Shown one piece after another: positions 36,757-61,146 of a stretch of 63,522 bases of DNA. Source of the stretch: Thermomucor indicae-seudaticae (taxonomy: Eukaryota > Mucoromycota > Mucoromycetes > Mucorales > Lichtheimiaceae); NCBI GenBank assembly GCA_000787465.1, contig JSYX01000155.1, positions 1 to 63,522 on the forward strand, read 5' to 3'. The first letter of the stretch is position 1; every line of letters starts with the position of its first letter. Both the position numbers and the translations under genes were made by a program. Under the pieces are notes generated by a model. That model was not told where the DNA came from. It worked only from the letters and a program-made list of their open reading frames with translations, and did no database searches.

Positions 36757-37581
36757 ATGGAACGCGCCTTGGCCACGATCGAGGGCTGGGAAGACGGCAA
36801 GCCATACCAACGTCGCATTACAAGACTCGATCGGTGGGAGCTCCAATCGGCTGACCGCCTAACGTTTCATTTCAATTCGCAGGATATTGTGCTCGTGCAA
36901 GACCCGCATTCCGACCATTTGGGCGGCTACATTTGGTTGACAGCCATTGTGTTTTGCTTTTACCTGGAATCTCTGGCGACCGCTAAACGGGGTAGCAGCA
37001 AGCGACATGAGTGGATTCGCATGGACCGCTCCAAGCGCTGGGTGGAGCTTGGGTCCGGAGTGGGGCTGATTGGGATCATGCTGCGCAAGCTTGGGATAGA
37101 AGATGTTGTCATTACCGACATTGCTGAACTGGTGCCTGTGATGGAACGTAATGTGGAAGCCAACGGGTGCCGGATTCAGTCTTTGAGCGGGCGCCGAAAG
37201 AACGAAGCTAATGTGACAGACCCAGTGGTCGTGGTGGAACCGCTGCTGTGGAACGATGCTGAGGCCATTCGACATATTAAGGAGGCTGGGGAAATTGATT
37301 ATGTGATTGCGTGCGACTGTATCTATTCCGAAGCAAGTGCGGTCGATCTCGTGGCCACGATGGATGCGCTTGCAGGCGAGCACACGTCCGTGATTTGCGT
37401 CAGCGAAGTGCGTAACCAGGCAGCACAAGACAAGTTCATGGCGGAGGCTCAACAACGTTTTAAGGTCGATCTGCTCCCTGCAGAACAATGGCAGACAAAA
37501 GTGAGTGACATCCCTTTTGATGCAACCTTGAATTTTTACCGACTGCGGAAGCGCGGTTCACTGAAACATAATAAAAAGTAA
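36757..37581 (+). CDS. Class I SAM-dependent protein methyltransferase (METTL21/FAM86-like)
   Basis: Single exon, 274 residues, start MERALATIEGWEDG. It belongs by motif to the Methyltransf_16 group, which methylates lysines of translation factors and chaperones. WLTAIVFCFYLES lies in the helix before motif I. Motif I reads WVELGSGVGLIGIM, followed by VVITDIAELVPVMERNVEAN (acidic loop D) and DYVIACDCIYSE (the post-motif D-x-x-Y type signature of this family). The last part is NFYRLRKRG. It lies 377 bp downstream of eEF2 in the same direction. Some relatives (yeast Efm2 and Efm3) methylate eEF2, but adjacency does not prove that substrate. Could equally target another protein. Confidence 0.8.
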   Translation: MERALATIEGWEDGKPYQRRITRLDRWELQSADRLTFHFNSQDIVLVQDPHSDHLGGYIWLTAIVFCFYLESLATAKRGSSKRHEWIRMDRSKRWVELGSGVGLIGIMLRKLGIEDVVITDIAELVPVMERNVEANGCRIQSLSGRRKNEANVTDPVVVVEPLLWNDAEAIRHIKEAGEIDYVIACDCIYSEASAVDLVATMDALAGEHTSVICVSEVRNQAAQDKFMAEAQQRFKVDLLPAEQWQTKVSDIPFDATLNFYRLRKRGSLKHNKK

Positions 37582-37771
37582 GGGTGCTTGTATCGAATCG
37601 GGGTCCCTTGTCCAACCCGCTGTGCGTGTGCTCGCGCCTGGTAAAAAAAAGAAGCGCGACACACACTCAACTGGACGTAACGCATACCTCTTTGCTTTTT
37701 TTATCTCTATTGTTTTATATCGTTGTTATTATTCTCCCCTTCCCCTTCTCTACTTTTGCTTTGACAGCGCC

Positions 37772-40700
37772 ATGAAGTGGCTGCCGTTACCAAAGATCGC
37801 TCATGGCATAGCTGTATATCCGTACACTCCATCTTCGAGCTCGGCAGCCAATTCACGACCTCCCACTACCTACTCTACGATACAATCGCCTTTACTATCT
37901 CCACAAATCGACGCAGCATCGATACTAACAACAGCATCAGCATCATCGGACAGTGGCTCGACGAATCCAGCTGATTATGCTTGCCTGCTTCCGTTGGAGG
38001 TGGGGGATGAGCTCTTCATCTTGGAACAGCAAGGACAGTGGTACCGCGGTTACGTGTTGTCTGCCGTCGAGGAAGGTAGAAAGCCAAACACTGCTCCGTT
38101 AGGCTGCTTTCCCCGCACGCATGTACAGATCAAAGAATATCTCGATATGGATCCAAACGAGTCGAATGCAGCTGAGATAATGATGCGACGCACAGATGAT
38201 CGGCCCTTGTCGTCTGTCGCTGCGCCCTGGCAGCAGCAACATGCAACAATCACTCCTGACGCACTCCAGTTGTCCCGCTCAGTCTCCGAATCACTCATTT
38301 ATTCATCGACTCCTAGAAAATCCTACCACGCGCCTACTACTGCTCGCCGGCCCGACAGTGTCGTGGATATGACTGTGGAGTTGGATGCCGAGGAACATGG
38401 AGCAGGAGGTGTACCAGTCCCGTCGCTACCTTTAGCACGATTTGATCAATCGACCATTACAGGCAGCTCTGAACCTCTGGTGGATGAAATTGGAGCATGT
38501 GTGAGTGAGTGGAACTGCTTATTGTACAAATATCTCGAAGAGCGACGGTATGCGGCATTCAACGCAGTAAGGGATCAAATCAATTATCTTTTCCAGGCCC
38601 GCCGACAACTGCTGGATCAGGCCTTGTCAAAAGAGGAATTGGCACGACTTCGCAAAGACATTATCCATCGCATGGTGATACTCAACATGTCACAAGACAG
38701 AGATATGATTATTCGACACCCAGAACGGGGTTACATCTTGGATGCCAACAGCACTTCGTTGGCTACAATCTTTCGAATGCACTGGAAATATACCTTGTCT
38801 GAACATATTCCAGTCACTTCAATGACCCTACCTCTCTCTCGACCCTCTATCGCATCCTCTTCACAAACAACAACAACTACGACAGCCGCCGATCCGTTAC
38901 CCTCACCACAACCACAGCAACAAACAACAACGCCCATCTCCACGACCACCACCAAAGGCGCCAAGTTTCACCACCTGTTCCTGGAGCTCAAGGCATGCGT
39001 CGCTCATTTCTGCCAGCCTGGCGAATTCACTGAGCTCTATTTTTCGCTCTACAACCGCGAGGAACGCCGGTTCCTGACAGAGCAGTTCGTGGTGGTTTTG
39101 AACTACAATGGGATGCCCAAGGACGAGCAGCAAATTGGACGACTTCAGACGCTGTTTGCCGACTTATCCATGCACGATTTGAACGAACACTTGTACATGG
39201 TCTGTCGCGTGGTACGGTTGGGAAATATGAAATCGGTAGACAGGGAGAAAGATGCGCTGGGGAACATCGGCAGTCATGCGTCCATCCTCTTTGGTGGCGT
39301 TGACGCTAGTAGCAGCAAGCAGTCTTCTGTTAGATCGCATGGATTGTGTCGTCGGCCGTTTGGATGTGCTGTTCTTCACCTGGGTTCGCTGTTGCAGAAA
39401 GCCGATTCATCGCCAGCCGGTGGGCCTGGTGATCTCTTATCACCAGGAAGTGTCAATGGTGGAGCAGGAGGAGGGGCAGCGAGTTATTATAGTCGACTAG
39501 CACCTTCAGAGCATGATATTCGGATCTATACGGCAGCATCTGAATCGACCTTTGGAACACTGCATGAAGATATCATCAACAACAACACCAAGGATTTTGT
39601 AAAGCATCCACGGGCAGAAATGCTTTGTGTATATCTGCGCTTGTTTTATGGACAGCTTGATGACGTGCTCAAGACGAATGCAGCGCTGCTACAAGGTGTA
39701 CCTCGTACGCTGCGTCTGGGGTTCCCGGACGTCGTGTTTCCAGACGATGAGCGCAACGAGCTGTATGTGACGTTAGATGCAGGCGACTTTGTGCAGTTTG
39801 GTCGGTCCAGAAACGTACAAGTCACAGTCTGTGTGCGGGACAACGCGACGGGCGAAGCCATTGAAAACGCCTTGTCAGCAGGAGCGGGCGCACCGCCGAC
39901 CACTTATTGGGAAAGCATGATCTTCTATCACGAGCAGAGGCCAAAGTGGGGAGAAATGATAAAGGTACAGATACGAGACTCACATGTATGGGAACGAGCC
40001 CATTTGTTCTTTACGGTACGATACAGGAGCAGCAACAGTGCGGCCGAAGTAGCCATGGGCAGCGACAAGCCGGTGGCCATGGGCTTCTTGCCGCTGTTTC
40101 TGCCACCTTTTCATCGATACTTTGTGGCAGACGGGTCGCATACGTTGATTCTGTACAAGTACGACAAGCAGCTGGCACATCCACGTGTCTATCTGGATAA
40201 CGTGGCCTGGTGCTCGCGATCCACGGCGCCGTTCAATCTTCAAAATCAGGAACTTGCTGCGTTTTGGAGGAAGCAACAACAACAGCAACGACCTCTGCAG
40301 CAACAGCATTCGCCTTCTCTACACAGTCTCAAGGAGTCGCACCGGACATTTAGCTCGTCGTCATTGAACGGCAGCGTCAGCAGTATCGTATCGGATTCGC
40401 AGTCGTCGTCGGTCCTGTCAGACCCGGCCAGCGTGGCAGCTGCAGCCAAACTGAACGCAACCCGGGACACTTTGACGATCACGACCTTTCTTTGCTCAAC
40501 GCATTTCACCGAGAACGAGACGCTCGTCAAGCTATTAAACTGGCGATCCATTTTGGATGTGGATCCGGACGGCAGCGGCTACGAAGACGTGCTTTCAGTA
40601 CTGGACAAGTTTACGTTTGTGGGAGAGATGGAAGTCGTCAAGTTTCTGAATGATATATTTGATGCTCTCTTGTCCATTTTGACGTACAGGCACAAGGACG

Positions 40701-43700
40701 AAGAAAAGGGTGTGCGTCTACATGACGAAGCGCTGGCAGCCATTGTGTGTGTCTTGGGCATAGTGCAAGATCGGCGGTTTAGCAATTTCCGGCCGGTATT
40801 GGATGTCTATGTTGAGCAACGGTTCTCGTTTCCGGAGGGCGAGGAGACCCGGAAACGCACTGTCAATATGCATGGATTGGTGTACGAGCCCATGCTCAAG
40901 GGCCTTTTGCGACTGTGCACCAATGCGAGTGAGCCCAAAAACGCCAAGCGATTGCGGAGCAGTATGAAGGTGTGGGAGTACCTGTTTCGGTTTGTGGTTC
41001 GGTCACGAGAAATGCAACAACTGACGGAAGACGAAGGTGAGCGATCATTGAGGGATATCATGTTCAAGGAGGAGATTCAACAGTTACTGGACATGATCAA
41101 TGCCATGGTGGGACCGGATCAGCCCAGCTTTATGATCGGCACACAGACTTTGGCGCTTCAGCACTTTGCAGACATCCTCGGCGAATTGCGACGCGTCTTT
41201 TCGTCCAAGCAGATGGTGGACATAACTTGCCGGTTTGTGAATGCAAGCGCTCATGTTACGGGCAAATTGGTGGGGTATCGCCTTTGCATGATATTGGCGA
41301 TCGTCAAAGGTCCAGTCTTTAATGACCAGACTTGTCGTTCCGGATTGGCGAAGAACGTGTTCAAGTGGATTAATGTGTGGATAAATTCCTACATGGCAGC
41401 CGCGAAGAATGTGATCTTTAGTCGACAGGCAGACGGAGGCGACGGCGGCAGTGGGGATCATCAGCAGCAAACGCGGTTACCTCGCGCCCAGTGGCTCGAG
41501 TATTTGCGTCTGTCTCTAACGATACTAAGCGAAGTGTTGGATAAAGTACGGAGGCTCTCCGGAATGGCGTCCTTGGGTATCTCATCGGCTTCCATATCAT
41601 CACCATCCCTTTCAGCGCTCTCGCGGCCCATCTCGCTGGCCACGAGCGGAGACGAAGACATGACGGAGGATTCTCAGGGAGAACGGATGACTATTACCGA
41701 GATGGCACTGCAGCTTTTACCTCAACTTTTGAATGCTTACAAGGACCTGCAGCGGTTGACGATGCAAGCTATACACGCATCGGGTATCGTGGCCGATAAC
41801 ACTGCGGCTGGAGCTGGCATAACACCGTCCGTGAGGTCGCGGCACTCGCTCAGTGTGCGCCGGGACAGATCAAACTCGATTAGCCCCAAGCATTCGTCGT
41901 CGACCTCAAGTCGTGAACTGGCGGCGGCATCTGATGGATCTAGCAAGTTTTCGGTGGTGCTGCAAGCATTGGCGACTTCACCTACGACGCCTTTCCCGTC
42001 TAGCTATCCGTTCCAGTCAACGTCGATCAAGAACAACCCTGCCTTGGTAGCGGCGGGCAACGTGGCAGCGATGGTAACGACTGGCCTGCTTGATATCACG
42101 GTTGTCATTCTGGAGCTATTCTATCTGGCGCCGCGACAGCAGTGGATCGACTACTTGTATACCATGTATGAAAACGAGGGGGCTGAGGCGCTAGCGACCT
42201 TTTTGCGTCAGGTGTGCCATACGTGCCTGGCTATCTTATTTGGCGACAGTATGCTGAAGCTGGATGAGCTGAGCGCCAGGGATGATGACAGCATGCATCA
42301 CGTACAGGACGAGTCGGCTATCACACGCAAGTTGCCTGACCATTGGCTCAACCTCTCGTTGATCGCTCATCAAATCGTTTTGTGCCACATCCTTGCGCCG
42401 GCGGTCAATGTGTTTGAGCTGCCAGAGTTTTTAGCTGCTACAGAGCATTATGATGAAGAAGAAGCCAGGGAAGAGGAGGAAGAGGAGGAAGAAGGAGGAG
42501 GAGCAGAGAAGAAGAAACGGAGTATGGTAAATGACCTGTGGCGCACGTTTTTCGTTGGCCTCCTGCGGGTGGTCTCGAGTCCACGACTGGAAATTGAACA
42601 AGACCTACCGCAAACACAGCGCGTGATCTGGAAACTGACGGATAACATGAAGGGTGCCGTGGGTGCCAAGACGCTTCTGGCTCTATGGCATCTGGCAGGT
42701 CCGAAAAAGTCGCGTGTGTTTGGATCGGGGCGGGCATCTGCGCTGGCTGCGACGATCGATTCAACTCGGGTCAATGGGCATCACTACAGCGGTTCTGTGG
42801 ATACGATTGCAGAGGAGGAGCGATTTATGTCTGCTGAAGAAGGGGAGGACGATGAAGATGTAGTAGAGGATACTGACCTTTTGGCCGCCAAGGTGATGAT
42901 CAACCAAATGAAAGACGAGGAGTTGGAAGCAGCAAAGCCCAAGGAGGACAAGGAGAAACCTGCGATTTCAAGACTTCAGCTAGCTCTGATCCCTGTGATA
43001 TTGCGACCTCTTTGTGGTGTGGGACTGACGCTGCATGATAAAGTGCGATCCGCGGCCGTGTCTATTTTGGCGGATATCATTGTGATTGAACTGCAATCGT
43101 TTGGCGAACTGTCTCGGGTGCAGAACTTACTCATAAGCACGATTGATTTGCTGGTCATGACCGAGAACAAAGGCGACGAAACGATCAAGAGCAAGATCAT
43201 ACCAGAAATGGTACAGGAGGTAGGGCACCGCTTGATCGAGCAAAAGGTGAGCGAGCCATTGGCGGAGCCGGCACGGCAGATGGTCGAATCGATTGGCAAG
43301 TTTTTGGACTTGTTACTACAGATCAGGAGCCTGCCACTGGAGAACGATGAGTTTGTGGACGAAAGGACGAGTGCGACGCTTAAATTGATGGAGTTTATTC
43401 AAGTCATTCAGCGTCAAGACATTTATGTCAAGTATGTCCATCAGCTTGTGGAGATGCATCTGAGCAATAATAACTATGTCGAGGCTGCTTTCACGTTGCG
43501 ACTGCATGCCAATTTATTATCCTGGGACCCCAATGAAGAACTACCAGCGATCGAGGAACTGGACTTGCCTGCAGAGACCGCCTTCGCTCGAAAAGAAAAG
43601 CTGTACTGGAATATGCTCTCGTACCTTGAAAAGGGGCATGCATGGGAAATTTGCATCAAACTTTGCAAAGAATTGGCTGCCGAATACGAGTCGACCGTCT

Positions 43701-45185
43701 ATGACTATATGAAGCTGAGCGAAGTGCTCCAGCGGGAAGCTCAGTATGTGCAGGACATTATGCAAAAGGAACGGTACTTTGCAGAATACTTTCGAGTTGG
43801 GTTCTATGGTCGCGGATTCCCTCCCAGCGTGCGAAACAAACAGTTTGTCTATCGCGGTATGGAATGGGAAAAGATTGCGTCGTTTGTGGAGCGAATGCAG
43901 AACCAGCATCCGAACGCCCAGATCCTCACCGGCAAACAGCAGCAGTCTGGACTACTTTTCGAAGATGATTTGGCGGGTGAATTGGATGCTCAGTATCTTC
44001 AGATCACAGCCGTAACGCCAGAGCCTGATGAAAAGACAAACACAGAACTGCTCCAGAATCCACTTGTTCCGGACAATATCAAGAAGTACTATGCTTCCAA
44101 CGATGTGTGCAGCTTTTCGTTTTCTCGACCGTTTGATAAACAAGGCCAACAGCAACAGCAGCAGCAAGCTGGGAATGCCAGTAAACCCGAGATGGACTTT
44201 CTCAACTTGTGGACGAAAAAGACTATATTTGTGTGCGAAGAATCTTTCCCGACAACGGCTCGACGTTCAGAGGTGATTTCAGTTCAGGAGATTGAGATCT
44301 CGCCTATTGAAAATGCGGTGCTTGCTATTGAAAAGAAGAACCATGAGCTGAATGAGCTGAATAACAAGTATGCCGTGCACTTGCAGTCTCCTCGTAAAGC
44401 TGCCGGATCCATCAATATCAACCCATTTTCAATGGCTCTGAACGGTGCAGTCGATGCGCCTGTCAATGGCGGTGTAGCGCTGTATCGCAAGGCGTTTTTG
44501 ACAGACGATTATTGGGAGAAAAATCCAGATATGCGGCCATGGATTCGACGGCTGAAGGAAGCGATCTATGAACAGGTTATTTATTCATTCTGTGCGCAAT
44601 GTTATCTACATTTGCTGATGGGTTACGGGCCAAATTTAGGTTGAGATTATCGAAAAGTGTCTTGAGACGCACAAGAAACTTGTGTCTGCTGAAATGCGAC
44701 CTTTTCATTCAACACTTGCTGGATGTATGTGTTTATTCAAATTTGCAAAGTGAGACTCTACAGAGAAAGAATAACCTTTCTTTCTTTTAGTTTTCAAAAA
44801 GAATTTCGAAGAGGAGCTCGATTATATACATAAGCGGCGAGGTACCCAAGAAATAGTGGAGGAGCAGTCCACAGAGCCATCAACAGCGGCAGAACCACGA
44901 CCTCCGATGACACGAAAAATGTCATCGACACCATCCTCCCTGCCCATGTCACCCATTTTATCCACTATGCGTTCATCGACTGATGTTCGTCCAGCAAGTA
45001 TTGCCGTGGATGTACCTTTCGCTTCCGCCATCTATAATAATGCATCTATTTCATCCATCACTGCTACTACGTCTGCTGCTTCTACTACTACAGCAGCCAA
45101 CACCACTACTACTAGTGCTGCTTCGCGAGCCGAGAGCTTATCGCGTAGCCTCAAGATGTCGCTTCGCAAGAAAAAGCGGACATAA
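37772..45185 (+). CDS. DOCK-family guanine nucleotide exchange factor (Dck1-like)
   Basis: Three exons (37772-44575, 44640-44724, 44791-45185), 2,427 residues. It activates Rho-family GTPases, with an ELMO-type partner in known systems. The N-terminus holds an SH3-like segment (CLLPLEVGDELFILEQQGQWY). The DHR-1/C2 domain is near residues 600-810 (RNELYVTLDAGDFVQFGRSRNVQVTV is its core; YDKQLAHPRVYL its end). A long armadillo-like helical region follows. The catalytic DHR-2 domain starts near residue 1890 (ARKEKLYWNMLSYLEKG and QKERYFAEYFRVGFYGRGFP) and ends in the terminal exons (NFEEELDYIHKRR). The tail is Ser/Thr/Ala-rich and ends in a basic LKMSLRKKKRT, which could bind membrane or act as an NLS. 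Start chosen at MKWLPLPKIAHG. Confidence 0.93.
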
Positions 45186-52471: not shown

Positions 52472-52982
52472 ACGGCTAAAACTGAAGTGTTAGAAAAGCG
52501 CAAATCCATGAGCAGTGGTGACCAGGCTCCTACGCGTAAACGGAAGAATACCCGCAAGTAAAAATAAAAGGAACTTGCAATGCTATGCAACGTGCGAAGG
52601 AACTCTCCCCACACGCTTCCCCTCCGTCTCCCTTCTCAGTGTAAGCTTTTATTAATGCAGAAAACAAGCAGAGAGTGAGGGAGAGAGTTTCTGACGGATG
52701 TTATGTAGGATTTTGTCTCGTTTTTCGTCAACAAAGCCCGATTTAGTGAGCTCAGCTGCTCTGATAATATGCCTGTAAATAAACATGTATCTAAACTAAC
52801 TCCGACTGATTTAAGACACAAGAGATTTAAAAATTAGCGACCTTTTTGACGATGATGGTCAGGTTATTATATACACTCACCAAGTCAAACAGCCGAGATA
52901 GTATTCAAACAAGTGAAAAGAATTAAAAAGAATGAGTATCGTAATAATTGAATGAAAAAATATACAGACTTATAGATACAAC
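52472..52982. other. Intergenic; basic in-frame extension then AT-rich spacer
   Basis: 52472-52561 continues the LIM-binding frame after its TAA (TAKTEVLEKRKSMSS, then TRKRKNTRK) to a second TAA. The rest is AT-rich, without genes, and lies 3' of the Fanzor-like ORF. If this locus behaves like a TnpB/Fanzor element, the guide-encoding right end would be here, just below 52983. Confidence 0.4.
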
Positions 52983-53038
52983 GGGCGCAAGGCCCTATCC
53001 ACGTGTCGAAGTGGATCCAATTTTTCGTGAAGGACGAA
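52983..53038 (-). ncRNA. Candidate Fanzor guide RNA (omega RNA) scaffold hairpins
   Basis: Three hairpins in 56 nt at the 3' end of the Fanzor-like ORF, covering the stop codon (52995-52997). GGGC pairs with GCCC around GCAAG at 52983-52995. ATCCAC pairs with GTGGAT around an 8-nt loop at 52997-53016. TTCGT pairs with ACGAA around GAAGG at 53024-53038. In TnpB and Fanzor loci the omega RNA overlaps the 3' end of the ORF and runs into the right flank. Position and structure agree; transcription and function are inference. Confidence 0.4.
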
Positions 53039-56000
53039 TGAAGCTAGCAGGGCGTTTCTGATAGAGCAGCACGGACTTTGTGATTGTTGCTACATTGTCG
53101 GCGGCGTTACCATCACGATGAATGACATGATGGCAGTCTGGGCACTGAACAACGCGACGCACCTGCATAAGTCCTTGAGAGTCGAGACGATTTCTGTCGC
53201 GGACTGGGAGCACCGGACGTCATCTCAGAAAATCAACTTTCACCATGCGACCATTTTTAACGCATCGGCAGCAGATCTTGGACGAATTGTACTCGTCCAC
53301 TCGAGTGAGTGTGTCGGGCTCGTTGCTGTGCTCATTCTGCTGCAAGATGTTGCAGTACAGTGCTCCTGATAGCTTGTGGTCCATGGGTGCAAGGGCTCCC
53401 TTCCTGGCTCGGCGACTCATACCATCCAGGCCAAATCCGTAGACCAAGGGTTTACCGCTTCGCTGTATAGTCTGATTTGCTTGGTTCGTTATAAGATTGC
53501 AGGCCCTGTGAAGACATGATCGACCGGATATGGCATTGTCCCATTTTCGGCGTCGCACAGATGGGTTGGAGTAAAATTCAAAAATCCGGAGCCCCTTATC
53601 GTCTGCCTTGAACTGTCTGACGCACTCCAAGTATCTGTCAAGAGTGCTGTGGGTTGATCCTTGGCTGAGGTCGCTCTCCAATAGATCAATGCCAGCGGCA
53701 CACTTGCGATCCATGAGCCAGTCGCGGTTTGGAATAGTTCTGCCTACAGAAAACCTCGCTTGATTATGAGCTGGGATCCCTTTTTGGATGGGTCGGCTGG
53801 CAAAAAGACACTTCCAACGGGACACACCTCGCCGAAATCAAGCCCAACCACACCGTCATAACGTTCAAGGAGGTTAACTGGGTCGCCGCTGAGATTCACA
53901 CGCCAGCGCTCCTGCAGTTGTTCTCTTGTTGTCCGCCGCAGCTCTGTCAAGTATTTAGGAGTCGTGCTGATCGTCTTTGATCGAGTCCAGTCCATGAAGA
54001 GGGCGTACAGACGTATTCCATCGGTTCTGAAGACACGTCGTGGTGTGAACCGCTTCTTGTTCGGATTGCCAGGAATTGTCTGGTTTAACCAGCGGAAATA
54101 GCGTCGCTTTTCGACCTTGACGTTGCCATCTCGGTCGATAGTACCCTGCTCCCGTATGTTGAAGACCACGGAAAACGGATCTGGACGATCGCGACCTTTC
54201 CTCGTGCCAGCCTTCGTGATATCGCGACACGCACTTTCTATCCCGTCAATTTCTAAACAATTGTTTGCTTAGTAAATGAACCGCGAAGACATGAGAATAA
54301 TCTTCAAACCTTGACGCAACCGCCGCATCTCCTCTTCGTCCTTTGTCTGTGCCATGCGCTCCTTCAAAGGCTGAATAACGGGACCCGCAAAATGATCAAT
54401 ATGATCCAGCAGTTTGTTCGTGAAACGCTTGCTGAATGGTATTGCAACGGTATGACATGGCTGTACCGGACACACGGGAAACGCGAGGCCATCCGGGCAT
54501 TTTTCCAGTATATATATCATCAACGGGATCAATGGTCCGCCTTTAGTTTTCGCAAGTCTCTCTTCGGAAATGACTTCATCGTCTTCCTCTTCCTCGTCGC
54601 TTTCTGGGTAATCGCTGTTGTCATCATCGCCCAGAGTGCGTTTGCTGGGGAGCTGTGAAGAGGAAGGTTCCGCAACCATTCGGTCCCGCTGCTTTGTTCC
54701 AAGACATTCCTCCAGATTGATGCCGAGTACTGGCTTGTCTGTTACGTTGACGCCGCGTTCGGCACTAATTAAGTCATCAATGGCTCGCTGAACATTCCTC
54801 GGAAGCTTTCTAATCGACTTTGCGACGTCTTCTTCTTCGTCGTCTTCGTCTGCGGAATGAAGCGGCACTTCCCAAATCTTGCCAAACAAGTAGCTGATTA
54901 AAGATTTGGTGTTCTGCGGCCACCCTTCAGGTATCGTAGCCTTGTTAATAAGTTCTCGGCGACACTAGTCATCGTCAAATGGCGTTGATGACGTGCGGTT
55001 CCGCTGCACCATTTTCGTCACGAAGCTGTCCATCTGCTTTCCGATACTCTGGTCGACTGGATACGAGGATAAGACACCGGCATCTCTTTCATGCGTTGCT
55101 TGAGAATGACCGGGAGTTGGGCTCGAGAAGCGCACACCCCTTGAAGGAGAATGCCGGGATGGTCCAGACGTTGGTCCTTGGCTAGACGTTGACTCCTGGG
55201 TGGACGTTGCTTCTTGAGTAGCTCTTGCATTGACAGTTGTGACCAATGCATTGATGAACTCGGGATCCTGTGGCCAGCCTAGCGGAGCTTTCGCAGTTTC
55301 CTTGAGCCTTCTCTGCAGATACTTACTGTACCTCTCTTTGAAACAGGCAACAATGCTCTGACGGAAAGCAAGATCAAGCTCAACTGCCATTTGCTGTACC
55401 AGGTCCCCGCGATGCTGAGTATCTGGCAAATCACGCATTCTGTTAGAGCATCCATGGAACCAAATTTTCCGAGCTAGCAATAATACGTTCCTCATAAGTT
55501 TGTTATTTGCCATGAGATCCATCAATGAGAGGAGCGCCCGATCCCCTGGGAAAGCCTTGAATGACTCCGGTCCCTTGGACGATCGCAGGTCACCACGGCG
55601 GTCCAAAGTAACCAGATCCGGATCGTATGTAGCTTTGGCTAGTTGCTCGCGATCTTCTGTCCGAGTCACGCGCGTTCTAGGATCATAATCCATAGCACAG
55701 TAGAGGATCCATCGCCACACTTGCTGCGGATTCGAGCTGCTTCCAGCGGGAAAGAACTGTGCATAGAATTCCGCTCTCTTTTCGTTGTCAAGTACGTGAT
55801 ACGCTTCACGCAACGCAATATTGGCGATATGGAGAGCAACGAACCGAGCGTATGACATCTCCTGAACGAGCATGCGAACGATCTTCTCCAAAGGAGCAGC
55901 TTCTTGCCGGGCAGCGTCATTGGATCTCTTATTACGGTCTGCAGCTGCACTTAGAATAGAAGAGTGAAGACCTGCGTCTGCTGTGACAACGTATCGAGAT

Positions 56001-57527
56001 TTGTCGGAGATAACTTGTTGCTCTCCAGTCTGGGGATCCTTCATGCGAATTACAGAAGGTTCTTGCGCGTTCCGTATGACCTTACTTGCCTTTGCTACCA
56101 CTAGCGCGCTGTTTGCCTTTGTACTTTACAGGTCTTTCCTCAGTGCGCGCTTTCGTGATATATACTTCCGGTGCAGGGATGCTAGCCCGGGGCTGGTCTG
56201 ACGGTGAAAGGAACTTGTAGTGCGACCCTTGGTCAGTACGACGCTGAGGAGGCGGCGCAGACGCACTAAGAGCTTCACCGAGGTAAGGCAGGATTGATTC
56301 GTTCAATGTAAACGGGATCGTTCCAAAACGCATCCACTGTCCGCCAGAGGAGATGCCGGAAACCAGAGGCCTGCAAAACTGGTGAAGCGCAATTTCAAAA
56401 CGCTGCATCTCCGAATTCGATACTTTGGTCCCGATATTGTCCATCAAGGTAACCAAGAGTTCGTTCGCTGATTCTTGGGAAGGTCTAATCTCGTTGAGCA
56501 GCCTCATGATCTTTTTAAACGAGATGCTGTAGAGATTCCTTGCATAGTCGTTGCAGCATGTAGATGCTAGGACCACAAACCGAACTTCGGCCTAGGATTT
56601 TTTTTTCGCGTTTGTAAGAAATGAAATTGTGAATATGCAGAATTAATTACCATTCGCACGTCTGTCTCAGAATCTGTTCGTAGTCCCATCGCATGCAGCA
56701 GACCACGCTTCGTCACCACTTTCCCCTTGAAATCGCTGTCCGACCAGTTGGTCTTGGTGATATGCTGCGGCGAATATGCGCGTCAGACCGGTGCATAAAG
56801 ATCGTTCAGAGAAAAAAAGGAAGCAAAAAATGCACACCACAACGTCAAGAGCGCCCCCGTAAGCGAAAAGGTCACCGTCCCGAGACATGATCGCGGGTCG
56901 CTCATCCTCGCGGACTGTGTTGCATAGGTACACTATCTCAGAATCGGCTTCGAAGGGGGCCTCATGATAGTAAATCCCGGCTGGCTGACTGCCTGCGTCT
57001 TGATATACCATGATATTGTGTGCCACCGTATTCTGAGTGACGGCCTGCTTGATCGCCGGTGTGAAAGTGACCCACTTGCGGGCATACTTGTTGAACCGCT
57101 CTTGTTGGTAATTGTTGCGGATGCCGCGCTGATGGATGCGCCTCGCTGCCCTGTACGCTTCTCTACGGTGGCTCTGTCGGGCTAAATGGGTCTGCTTCTT
57201 TGCGTACAATGGTTGGCCGTCGATAACGAAACAAACCGTGGAGACATCGCTGCGTGTCATGAAACGTTGCACGTCGGATATCACGAGCTCCACAAAGCGG
57301 GCAATAATGTGGTGGACTGCGTTGACGTTTCGTTCTACTTCGCCCTGCGACGACCGTAACTCGATTTCGAGCAGTTCGCGGGCAAAGATCTGCAGCAACG
57401 TAAAAAATTCACAGCAGAAATCTACATAAAGGACACTCACCTCTTTCTGCCGAAGTTCGTCTGCTGTGCTTACTGCTCGGGATGTGTTTGACTGACGTAA
57501 AAAGGCATGAAGCCCTTTTAGTCCCAT
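52995..57527 (-). CDS. FEN1/XPG-like nuclease fused to Fanzor (TnpB-like) RuvC nuclease
   Basis: Seven exons: 57527-56838, 56764-56651, 56591-56099, 56061-55010, 54964-54310, 54252-53252 and 53203-52995. About 1,404 codons. Residues 1-300 form a flap-endonuclease core: MGLKGLHAFL start, acidic residues in YVDF (D36), VIDGQ (D103), APFEADSE (E193, D195) and SRDGDLFAYG (D217, D219), then an H3TH-like CCNDYARNLYSISFKKI. A long unassigned middle follows (WRWILYCAMDYD; acidic DEEEEDDE). The Fanzor part has RuvC-I VVGLDFGEV (near D1140), GFGLDGMSRRARKG in the RuvC-II region, VDEYNSSKICCRC, then QCPDC and HRDGNAADN (RuvC-III). An in-frame TAG at 54965-54967 lies inside a 45-nt candidate intron. Near 53745-53755 the frame shifts by one base. 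It may therefore be two genes or a damaged copy. No transposase gene or terminal repeats were identified. Confidence 0.7.
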
Positions 57528-58542
57528 ACAGGTTTAAAAATTCTAATTGCAGCAAAATTGAGCATTAAGACAAGATACAAGAAGGCAGATCGGTCCATAC
57601 AGTTAACTTTTTTGTAAGTATATGGGTTTTTTTGGATTAAGATAGCTGAAACCTCAACAATCAGTATATACGATGGGTAGCATCAAAAGTGAATATACCT
57701 ACATATATAGTGAAAAGTTGGTTTAATAGCTAGTTCGAACGTATATGTTGAGTTTGTTGTAAAAAGTGAAGTCTATTGTTCAACCGTTAGTTTGCATGGT
57801 GGTATAACTTAGCAAAAATGCAAAAGCTTACAAATGAGTCGCTTTGTTGAATTTTGAGATGTAAAAAATCGTAGTCATTAAGAGAACGATGAGGAAAGAA
57901 AAACCAGAGACGATGTGCTGGAGGTAATATAATACTTGTGTGTTTCAGATCCCGAAGTTTCATTGTCTCATGGATTTTACCACATTGATATGGACCATTG
58001 ATCATACCGGGTCACTGGATTGATCCATCAATGAATATTAATCGCGCGATACTTGGTTAATAATTAATGTGTTTCATACACGATATGATGCCTTCATGTT
58101 TTTATTCTCGTATTCTGGTTTACTTTGGACGCAGAATGATACGCCAGTAGAATGGATCAATCATCGAAATGGTATATTATTAATTAAAGTAATGCATCGA
58201 CAGCACTACAAGAGAAAACTTTTCTCTCCTAGTCTCAACTATGCACAGCGCATTTTTGGAGTCCATATTTGAATGAGCTGGACTTGAGTTTCTCATATGG
58301 CCTTTCTTTTCTTTGATTGCGAGTAGAAAGTACCTTCTTCTGCAGCGTAGAATAACAATCAATGGAGTGACGTACATCACATGATGCACTGGTGTACTGT
58401 GATGCATACGGGACACGTTAGCACAATGAAAATATCATGAGATGCATTAGCAAAATGGAGGCAAACATGGAATGATTCAGGGTAGAATGATCCGGCATAT
58501 ATAAAAGAACCTGACAGATCAAACTTGCCATTTCAATCCAAA
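57528..58542. other. AT-rich intergenic
   Basis: Upstream of the FEN/Fanzor gene on the minus side and promoter of the small basic gene on the plus side. Very AT-rich, with no coding region. GATGCA occurs three times upstream of the TATA box (58385, 58403, 58442 approximately), which may be a factor site. Confidence 0.45.
58498..58507 (+). promoter_or_regulatory. TATA box of small basic protein gene
   Basis: TATATAAAAG, identical to the decamer upstream of eEF2. It lies 36 nt before the ATG at 58543, so the 5' leader must be very short. Confidence 0.55.
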
Positions 58543-59471: not shown

Positions 59472-59955
59472 TCATGCTGGAGCTACTAATATTGCTTGGC
59501 GTACCCTGTCCGTTTGCCATTTGCGTATAACTTTCGGTATTAACTTCCAAGGTGGATTCAGATATAGACCTCTCTTCGGCCATCGTTGGCGAAAGGCGTC
59601 TGTCGCACAAGCTTCTGGGTCCGGCATCGATGACCAGTATCTGGGTAGGCGTCTATTGTGTCTTGCTGCGAATGCATCTATGATCAATTTGCATTTGTAA
59701 TGTTGTCTGATCTTCTGAATGTGTTTGTGGGGCAAAGCTCCCTCGAACAACGGTGTCCTCACTCGACTGAGGCTGTCGGCCGCCACATTTTCCGCTCCCT
59801 TGATCTGGCTGGATTGCACTTGTAAATTGAATTGTTGATTACATCCCTGATTGCTAAGGCCAACTCATGTAGTTTTCGATTTGGCCCCCCCCCTCGAAAC
59901 GAATATTTGATTGCGGTCTTGTTGTCCGAGTAGGCATGGATGATACAACGGACAG
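59472..59955 (-). mobile_element. DIRS-type retroelement fragment: RNase H end
   Basis: The minus strand encodes a truncated RNase H of DIRS/Ngaro style in broken frames. YSDNKTAIKY (catalytic-Asp region) lies near 59930-59900, LHELALAIRDVINNS comes next in another frame, and IKGAENVAADSLSR and IIDAFAARHNRRLPRYWSS follow with LYLNPPWKLIPKVIRKWQ. Frameshifts separate the first pieces, so it is inactive. It meets a second fragment of opposite strand at about 59955. Confidence 0.7.
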
Positions 59956-61146
59956 GGATGGTCCCAGGCCTTCAAGAACCCGTTCCTCCATCCCCCATGG
60001 ATGTTATATCTCGTTGCTTACAGAAGATACGCCTGGAGGGCATAGCGGCGACAATAGTGGTACCTTATTGGAAGGCAGTACCCTGGTTCCCAACACTGAT
60101 GAAAATGGCAGTGGCAAGACCACTGATTCTGAATCCGAGACGAACGGTGCACCTGGCCACACCACTAACACCTTGGCCATTCAAGAACAAGATGTGGAGA
60201 CTCTCCCTCTGGTGGGCCTCCGCCGCCGATACGACGATGCGAACTTGTCAGAAGAAGCCCGCGAATTGTTGACAGACAACTTAACGGCAGACACAAGTAC
60301 GAATAGATCATATCAGCGGGGTCAACAACTTTTCGTCAACTGGGCCATGCAACACGATGTCGATCTTTCATCTTTCACCTTCCAGGATCTTATCAATATT
60401 TCTCGTTGCAGCTTACCATGACGTCTTTGGTCTTAACACCCTCAAGCTCTTCAAGACAGCAGTTCTCAAATTCCATCGGTTGCCCCCCTTATTTCACCAG
60501 AATCAAGATCTTCTTGCGTTGCTCCGTTCCTTTGCCAGTCGTGCTCCACAGCGCCCGTTGTCTCGTCAAATGGTGGATCTGACGCCTAGTTTGCGCCACG
60601 TTTCGTCCTTGGCCGACAAAGCTGTCACGGACCTTCTGGCGGCTAATCAAGCAGCTGCCTTTTTGCTCGCTATTGTTGGTTTTCTACGTCCCTCTGACCT
60701 TCACCGTGTAGTATTACGACGATGTACTATTGAATCTGGATCGAATCAACTTATTCTTACGATATCAGCATCCAAAGAACGACGTCAACATCGTGCTATT
60801 GTGGAAACCATCTTAATTCATCCAAACTTGCAAGACAACTCTCCTTGCCCCGTCAAGGCATTCTGCACCCTGCGGGATCATATAAAGGCAAAAGATCATA
60901 GACCACCGGATGTTTTGTTTGTTAACTCGATGCATCCTGACCGCCCGGAGCAAGCGCAAACCATTTCGCCCTGATTACGGCGTATCGTTAGAGTATCGAC
61001 AAACGTTTCGCCTGCTCCTTCTTTGCGCTCTCTTGGTTCGGAGCTGCCGTTGCGGCTGGCATTCCCTGGAGGATATCGTGACCTTGGGCAACTGGTCTCC
61101 TCCTGTGGTTTTCGAGGAACATTATCGTCGTCATCAGGTGGCGTAG
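59956..61146 (+). mobile_element. DIRS-type retroelement fragment: RT/RNase H end and tyrosine recombinase
   Basis: Starts inside the RNase H end (WSQAFKNPFLHPPW, then IAATIVVPYWKAVPWFPTLM in another frame). A tyrosine recombinase follows: NLTADTSTNRSYQRGQQLFV, FTFQDLINI, then after a frame change a core with AAFLLAIVGFLRPSDLHRVV (first catalytic Arg) and TISASKERRQHR. The C-terminal motif (SVRSLGSELPLR and LGNWSPPVVFEEHYRRHQ, with the Tyr nucleophile) is split between two frames. RT before recombinase on one strand is the DIRS/Ngaro order. Several frameshifts make it inactive. Confidence 0.7.

Follow-up and report, generated by a model that had tools for sequence, protein, structure and literature searches.

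An EXO1-like nuclease joined to a Fanzor1-like protein in a probably mobile gene family of Mucorales

The DNA analysed here, referred to as the window, comprises 63,522 nucleotides of contig JSYX01000155.1 from the fungus Thermomucor indicae-seudaticae. On its minus strand, between an ATG at 57527 and a final TAG stop at 52995-52997, a nuclease of the Rad2/XPG superfamily and a protein of the Fanzor type, an RNA-guided nuclease, are confirmed to follow one another in order (Table 1). A preliminary description had placed a structure-specific nuclease and a Fanzor-type protein in one gene, and this is supported by divergent co-linear copies, a relative of 1416 residues, matching intron positions and predicted folds; the RuvC domain and zinc ribbon with the motif HRDGNAADN also lie on that strand where it located them. 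Reading through the gene requires three introns, all ordinary in appearance. All 10 copies tested accommodate a GT-AG intron in frame at the position of intron 1, these being the copies whose profile matches break there (C65 reads through without an intron) and the splice test being permissive, with 1-10 candidates per site.

Table 1. The fusion gene and its surroundings, in window positions.
Feature	Position	Strand	Remark
EXO1-like nuclease / Fanzor-type fusion gene	52995..57527	minus	interrupted copy
Exon 1	56838..57527	minus	EXO1/FEN-superfamily nuclease core
EXO1 D30 equivalent codon	57420-57422	minus	
EXO1 D78 equivalent codon	57219-57221	minus	
EXO1 K85 equivalent codon	57198-57200	minus	
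EXO1 R92 equivalent codon	57177-57179	minus	
EXO1 E150 equivalent codon	56949-56951	minus	
EXO1 D152 equivalent codon	56943-56945	minus	
EXO1 D171 equivalent codon	56877-56879	minus	
EXO1 D173 equivalent codon	56871-56873	minus	
Intron 1	56765..56837	minus	73 nt, GT-AG
Exon 2	56651..56764	minus	nuclease domain
Intron 2	56592..56650	minus	59 nt, GT-AG; alternative donor at 56659
Helix-3-turn-helix (H3TH) part of nuclease	56487..56591	minus	
EXO1 D225 equivalent codon	56547-56549	minus	H3TH part
Linker, nuclease to Fanzor part	55991..56486	minus	weakly conserved
Fanzor REC region	55217..55990	minus	MID profile
In-frame TAG	54965..54967	minus	within conserved sequence
Fanzor N-terminal region, continuation	54332..54964	minus	FZN profile
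Intron	54253..54309	minus	57 nt; TACTAAG, branch-point-like
WED-like region and RuvC-I	53747..54178	minus	TDG motif; RuvC-I Asp in DFG context
TDG motif D codon	54020-54022	minus	WED-like region
RuvC-I Asp codon	53837-53839	minus	
RuvC with alternative Glu and first CxxC	53223..53750	minus	VDEY; frame unlike preceding piece
Alternative Glu codon	53292-53294	minus	VDEY
In-frame TGA	53220..53222	minus	
Second zinc CxxC and RuvC-III	52998..53219	minus	HRDGNAADN
RuvC-III Asp codon	53112-53114	minus	HRDGNAADN
Element right end, candidate guide-RNA scaffold	52784..52912	minus	common to 4 loci
Upstream block, tentative left part of element	57745..58041	minus	common with C510 (84%)

The N-terminal half matched Pfam XPG_I at 2.4e-5, barely over the cut-off, and XPG_N at 0.009, under it. 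The FEN1/XPG-like nature first ascribed to it stands at the level of the superfamily, but by profile comparison the closest relative is Exonuclease 1 (EXO1) rather than FEN1 or XPG, human EXO1 being reached by a family profile at 1e-9 and in a second profile search at 2.7e-11. The window copy keeps the seven EXO1-type acids together with the Lys and Arg of the helical arch. Across eight aligned sequences, partial rows counting as gaps, the seven active-site carboxylates are kept with the exception of D171, which is Asn in C4, and the arch Lys and Arg are present in all seven sequences that reach them. The features held in common with EXO1 and the Rad2-XPG-FEN1 enzymes are thus the seven acids, the arch Lys and Arg seven residues apart, the motifs APYEAD and DGDL, and the H3TH; unlike those enzymes, the nuclease here is joined, as read from sequence, to an RNA-guided nuclease in a multi-copy and probably mobile family. 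One alternative reading of a genuine fusion is that the EXO1-like half trims RNA, bringing the guide-RNA precursor to its mature form on the 5' side: RNA is the substrate of some superfamily relatives, XRN1 among them, and XRN1 chains occur among the lower fold matches (rows 46 and 50). EXO1, T5 exonuclease, FEN1 and Rad2/XPG rank better among those matches, however, and the H3TH Asp and the arch Lys and Arg, which mark the DNA-acting members of the superfamily, are kept, so that an RNA-trimming role is considered improbable.

The C-terminal half matched Pfam Cas12f1-like_TNB at 1.8e-5, slightly under the cut-off, and the four pieces between it and the XPG_I piece matched no Pfam family at its cut-off. 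The domain searches proposed in the preliminary description were thus borne out at the cut-off for XPG_I but not for XPG_N or Cas12f1-like_TNB, and family profiles reached EXO1 and, at 1.3e-4 (1.3e-5 in a second search), the Spizellomyces Fanzor SpuFz1. The Asp, alternative Glu, Asp and four Cys of the Fanzor type are present in the window copy. The alternative catalytic Glu, its placement defined as in the available part of PMC10711439, stands six residues before the zinc ribbon in 6 of 6 sequences reaching it and aligns to DEYKTS of SpuFz1. TDG, a putative counterpart of the Fanzor1 motif in WED, occurs in three of eight sequences (the window and the relatives P0002 and P0003, described below), TNG in four and NDG in C4. 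RuvC-I reads DFG, DSG or DLG in all eight, and because DPG, near exclusive to Fanzors according to the same part of PMC10711439, is found in 0 of 8, this half is termed Fanzor1-like, not canonical Fanzor1, on its sequence. It resembles the Fanzor1 proteins SpuFz1 and PpFz1 in predicted fold, in the RuvC Asp, alternative Glu and Asp, and in the zinc ribbon, and differs from Fanzor1 in the additional N-terminal EXO1-like nuclease and linker, in its RuvC-I motif and in the length of its Fanzor part, ~950 residues as against the ~800 at most reported there.

Low-confidence predicted folds give an EXO1/FEN match at the N-terminus and a Fanzor1 match after the linker. For one model the top six Foldseek matches were Fanzor1. 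Residues 475-1079 of P0002 match residues 27-466 of SpuFz1, beginning in the REC region, and its linker equivalent, residues 325-483, has a predicted local distance difference test (pLDDT) score under 50.

Single-exon searches of the same genome returned 21, 26, 10 and 16 matches, on 35 contigs. Four profiles were used to scan 24 of these with wider flanks and five more as pieces of 1.7-3.3 kb (C290, C323, C281, C89 and C242), with C508, C215, C40, C12, C86 and C478 outside the scan; the profiles were built from eight sequences including P0001-P0003, whose own scores are by construction. Loci L054-L060, which repeat the window, C438 or C460 or have no match (C510, C289), were left out of the count, and C510 was rejected as a further full copy for want of a significant domain match in the piece examined. 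On 11 of 29 contigs the nuclease is followed on its own strand by the Fanzor N-terminal or RuvC part, whereas a same-strand RuvC match within 6 kb downstream is expected by chance at ~0.003 per nuclease locus; the fusion looks real. Eight of the 11 include the REC region (window, C65, C4, C591, C645, C198, C209 and C431); C368 has an H3TH piece and RuvC only. The nuclease with REC is found on three contigs (C671, at the contig end, C8 and C89), the nuclease only on five (C354, C551, C187 and C432, within ~1.1 kb of a contig end, and C156, with room), REC only on one (C242), and RuvC only on nine (C294, C438, C290 and C323 lying at the edge of a contig, C460, C31 and C98 with free space upstream, and C429 and C281 as fragments). 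Many single-half loci are thus cut by contig ends, as expected where repeats break an assembly; the copies cut by or adjoining such ends are C354, C551, C187, C432, C294, C438, C290, C323, C671, C209, C431, C65 and C591. Long open frames cross much of the Fanzor part in C65 (818 residues) and C591 (677 residues). Four copies compared with the window copy are ~31% identical to it, which suggests that the fusion architecture is old.

In other fungi a profile search, restricted to proteins 0.55-1.75 times the query length and so excluding free-standing halves, returned three proteins, P0001-P0003, all with both halves, and P0001 of Lichtheimia hyalospora is the full fusion in one uninterrupted predicted protein of 1416 residues. 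A search with the RuvC half, whose length range excludes full fusions, returned seven proteins, P0004-P0010; P0004 is near identical by eye to the C591 frame, and P0004-P0009 begin inside the Fanzor part, none with a full REC region. Proteins carrying both halves, which the preliminary description sought in Mucoromycota, thus exist and number four of the ten database proteins found, the other six being incomplete; their hosts, L. hyalospora, Syncephalastrum, Apophysomyces and Rhizomucor pusillus, are all Mucorales. As to the possibility that relatives encode the halves as unlinked genes, both are present in 3 of 3 long relatives, found within a length range that barred free halves, and on 11 of 29 contigs in the same genome. 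Viral contigs and bacterial and archaeal genomes gave pattern matches and no relative, and the middle exon by itself, in a protein search whose length range left out full-length relatives, gave no match. That the two halves are adjacent genes of one element, merged by gene prediction, would fit the single-half loci, the proteins P0004-P0009 that cover the Fanzor side only, and a Met where the Fanzor part begins in two of eight sequences (C4 and P0002; three residues on in P0001, by eye). The other five sequences have no Met there, however, P0001 spans the join as a single protein, P0004-P0009 look like pieces in lacking a full REC region, and internal-deletion forms in C272 (L048), C300 (L062) and R. 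pusillus P0010 place a nuclease piece directly before RuvC without REC; two merged genes are therefore regarded as very unlikely.

Pairwise distances among eight sequences, some of them partial, are correlated between nuclease and RuvC (r 0.69; 11 of 20000 permutations as high), nuclease and REC (r 0.63; 40 of 20000) and REC and RuvC (r 0.77; 10 of 20000). The halves appear from this correlated divergence to have shared a history and travelled together, and the fusion gene is multi-copy and probably mobile in Mucorales. Sequence and predicted fold together point to both domains, to catalytic residues kept across the family and to a long-term linkage.

The element's right end lies downstream of the gene, and 52779-52784 is the limit of its homology with C438, C460 and C289. 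Over the last 106 nt these three and the window share 89-95% identity, about the conservation of the coding sequence, and the right end is a candidate guide-RNA scaffold. At C289 only the last ~129 nt of the right end are present (L060 236-360), without coding homology, and this stand-alone right end recalls the ghost guide-RNA loci of SpuFz1. In Rfam the one match lay below threshold and had no evident bearing on the element.

The explanation that is favoured, with confidence a little better than even, is that the window holds a decayed copy of a probably mobile gene whose single polypeptide would start with an EXO1-like 5' nuclease and continue through a flexible linker of ~150 residues into a complete Fanzor1-like RNA-guided endonuclease. 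The guide-RNA scaffold would come from the right end and the guide itself from the flanking DNA, and the Fanzor half would cut an empty copy of the element's own site, whereupon the tethered EXO1-like half would strip the 5' strands from the fresh ends. Repair would thereby be pushed from end joining to recombination with the element-bearing copy, and the element would be kept or spread by homing. This scheme draws on domain chemistry and on the available parts of a study of engineered EXO1-Cas9, a study of a TnpB gene drive and a review on exonuclease fusions. It is conceivable, at somewhat below even confidence, that the family is a natural 'exonuclease editor', a selfish element in which one protein cuts, resects and homes into empty alleles as a eukaryotic RNA-guided gene drive.

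A number of observations weigh against these interpretations, in addition to the lack of DPG. In the window copy two stop codons lie in frame and the frame changes once or twice, unlike in the preliminary description, which read its exons as spliceable. An intron at the in-frame TAG is disfavoured, as that codon aligns by eye to a residue of P0003. Where the window copy has its TGA, the sister copy C438 reads a sense codon, and the reading frame shifts near 53747. The linker holds one more such shift (~56085-56125), which may be an intron or a lesion: none of ten acceptors after the donor at 56085 restored the frame, and 41 permissive GT-AG pairs would do so. Barring an assembly error, the window most likely holds a decayed member of the family, and among the copies read in detail the window, C65, C4, C591 and C198 are each interrupted or frame-changed somewhere. 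Syncephalastrum racemosum P0002 (1166 residues) and Apophysomyces ossiformis P0003 (1036 residues) end inside RuvC, P0003 also has no nuclease start, and Rhizomucor P0010, outside the eight aligned sequences, reads FEAYP and thus lacks the second acid of the pair. The models have low mean pLDDT scores (64.1 and 55.7), their Fanzor matches have TM-scores of 0.22-0.28, a second aligner ranks Cas12 chains level with Fanzor for the RuvC part of the C591 model, and for the S. racemosum model Foldseek gave no match below 0.001, with EXO1 first at 0.027. Compared with its shuffles the right end has no better fold (z -1.39; 19 of 200 shuffles as good), and 0 of its 24 pairs show covariation. Neither terminal inverted repeats (TIRs) nor target-site duplications (TSDs) beyond 8-nt matches were found, and the flanks examined showed no transposase.

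Two further readings accept the fusion and give the nuclease another task. It might serve transposition, removing 5' flaps or filling in gaps at insertion ends, in a family that looks mobile, whose right-end homology stops sharply in several copies and whose examined flanks hold no visible transposase; this is judged unlikely, as no TSD, TIR or integration intermediate is known and the nearest relative is EXO1, not FEN1. Alternatively, the EXO1-like half would destroy the cut target, such as rival elements or invading DNA, instead of promoting its repair. The chemistry would be the same and would suit a multi-copy family with varied guides; target destruction is given a low probability, like RNA trimming.

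Full-text literature searches turned up no account of a fusion of this kind, which is not proof of absence as many subscription papers and bioRxiv were outside their reach. Mucor, Rhizopus and Phycomyces belong to the same fungal group as the hosts of the fusion. Fanzor1 elements reported from these genera (Bao and Jurka, 2013; PMC3627910) are similar in their related hosts and multiple copies, and MCi-2 among them is without recognizable TIRs; they differ in that the available text has no nuclease wording ('fen' and 'flap' are absent), while the fusion here has an EXO1-like half. Two candidate papers (PMC12719977, PMC11521923) describe no natural fusion in their available parts. An engineered EXO1-based Cas9 'exonuclease editor' (PMC11107001, in the part available) likewise combines an RNA-guided cutter with the EXO1 nuclease, but is man-made and Cas9-based, whereas the protein here would be natural and of the Fanzor type, with the nuclease N-terminal. 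As to the benefit that a Fanzor brings to its element, a built-in end-resecting nuclease, as predicted here, would be a direct clue that recombination repair is the point of the cut, a purpose made testable by inactivating the domains singly. If true, the fusion would be a natural equivalent of the exonuclease fusions engineered with Cas9 or Cas12a, which favour precise repair.

Elsewhere in the window, remnants that by eye resemble a DIRS-type retroelement lie 1.4-3 kb upstream of the fusion gene, at 59472-59864 on the minus strand and 59873-60974 on the plus strand; one frame has a Dam match (3e-5, below cut-off) and the recombinase-like frames match no Pfam family. On the plus strand a 2359-residue open frame at 37565-44644 resembles, by eye rather than by family search, a DOCK-type exchange factor.
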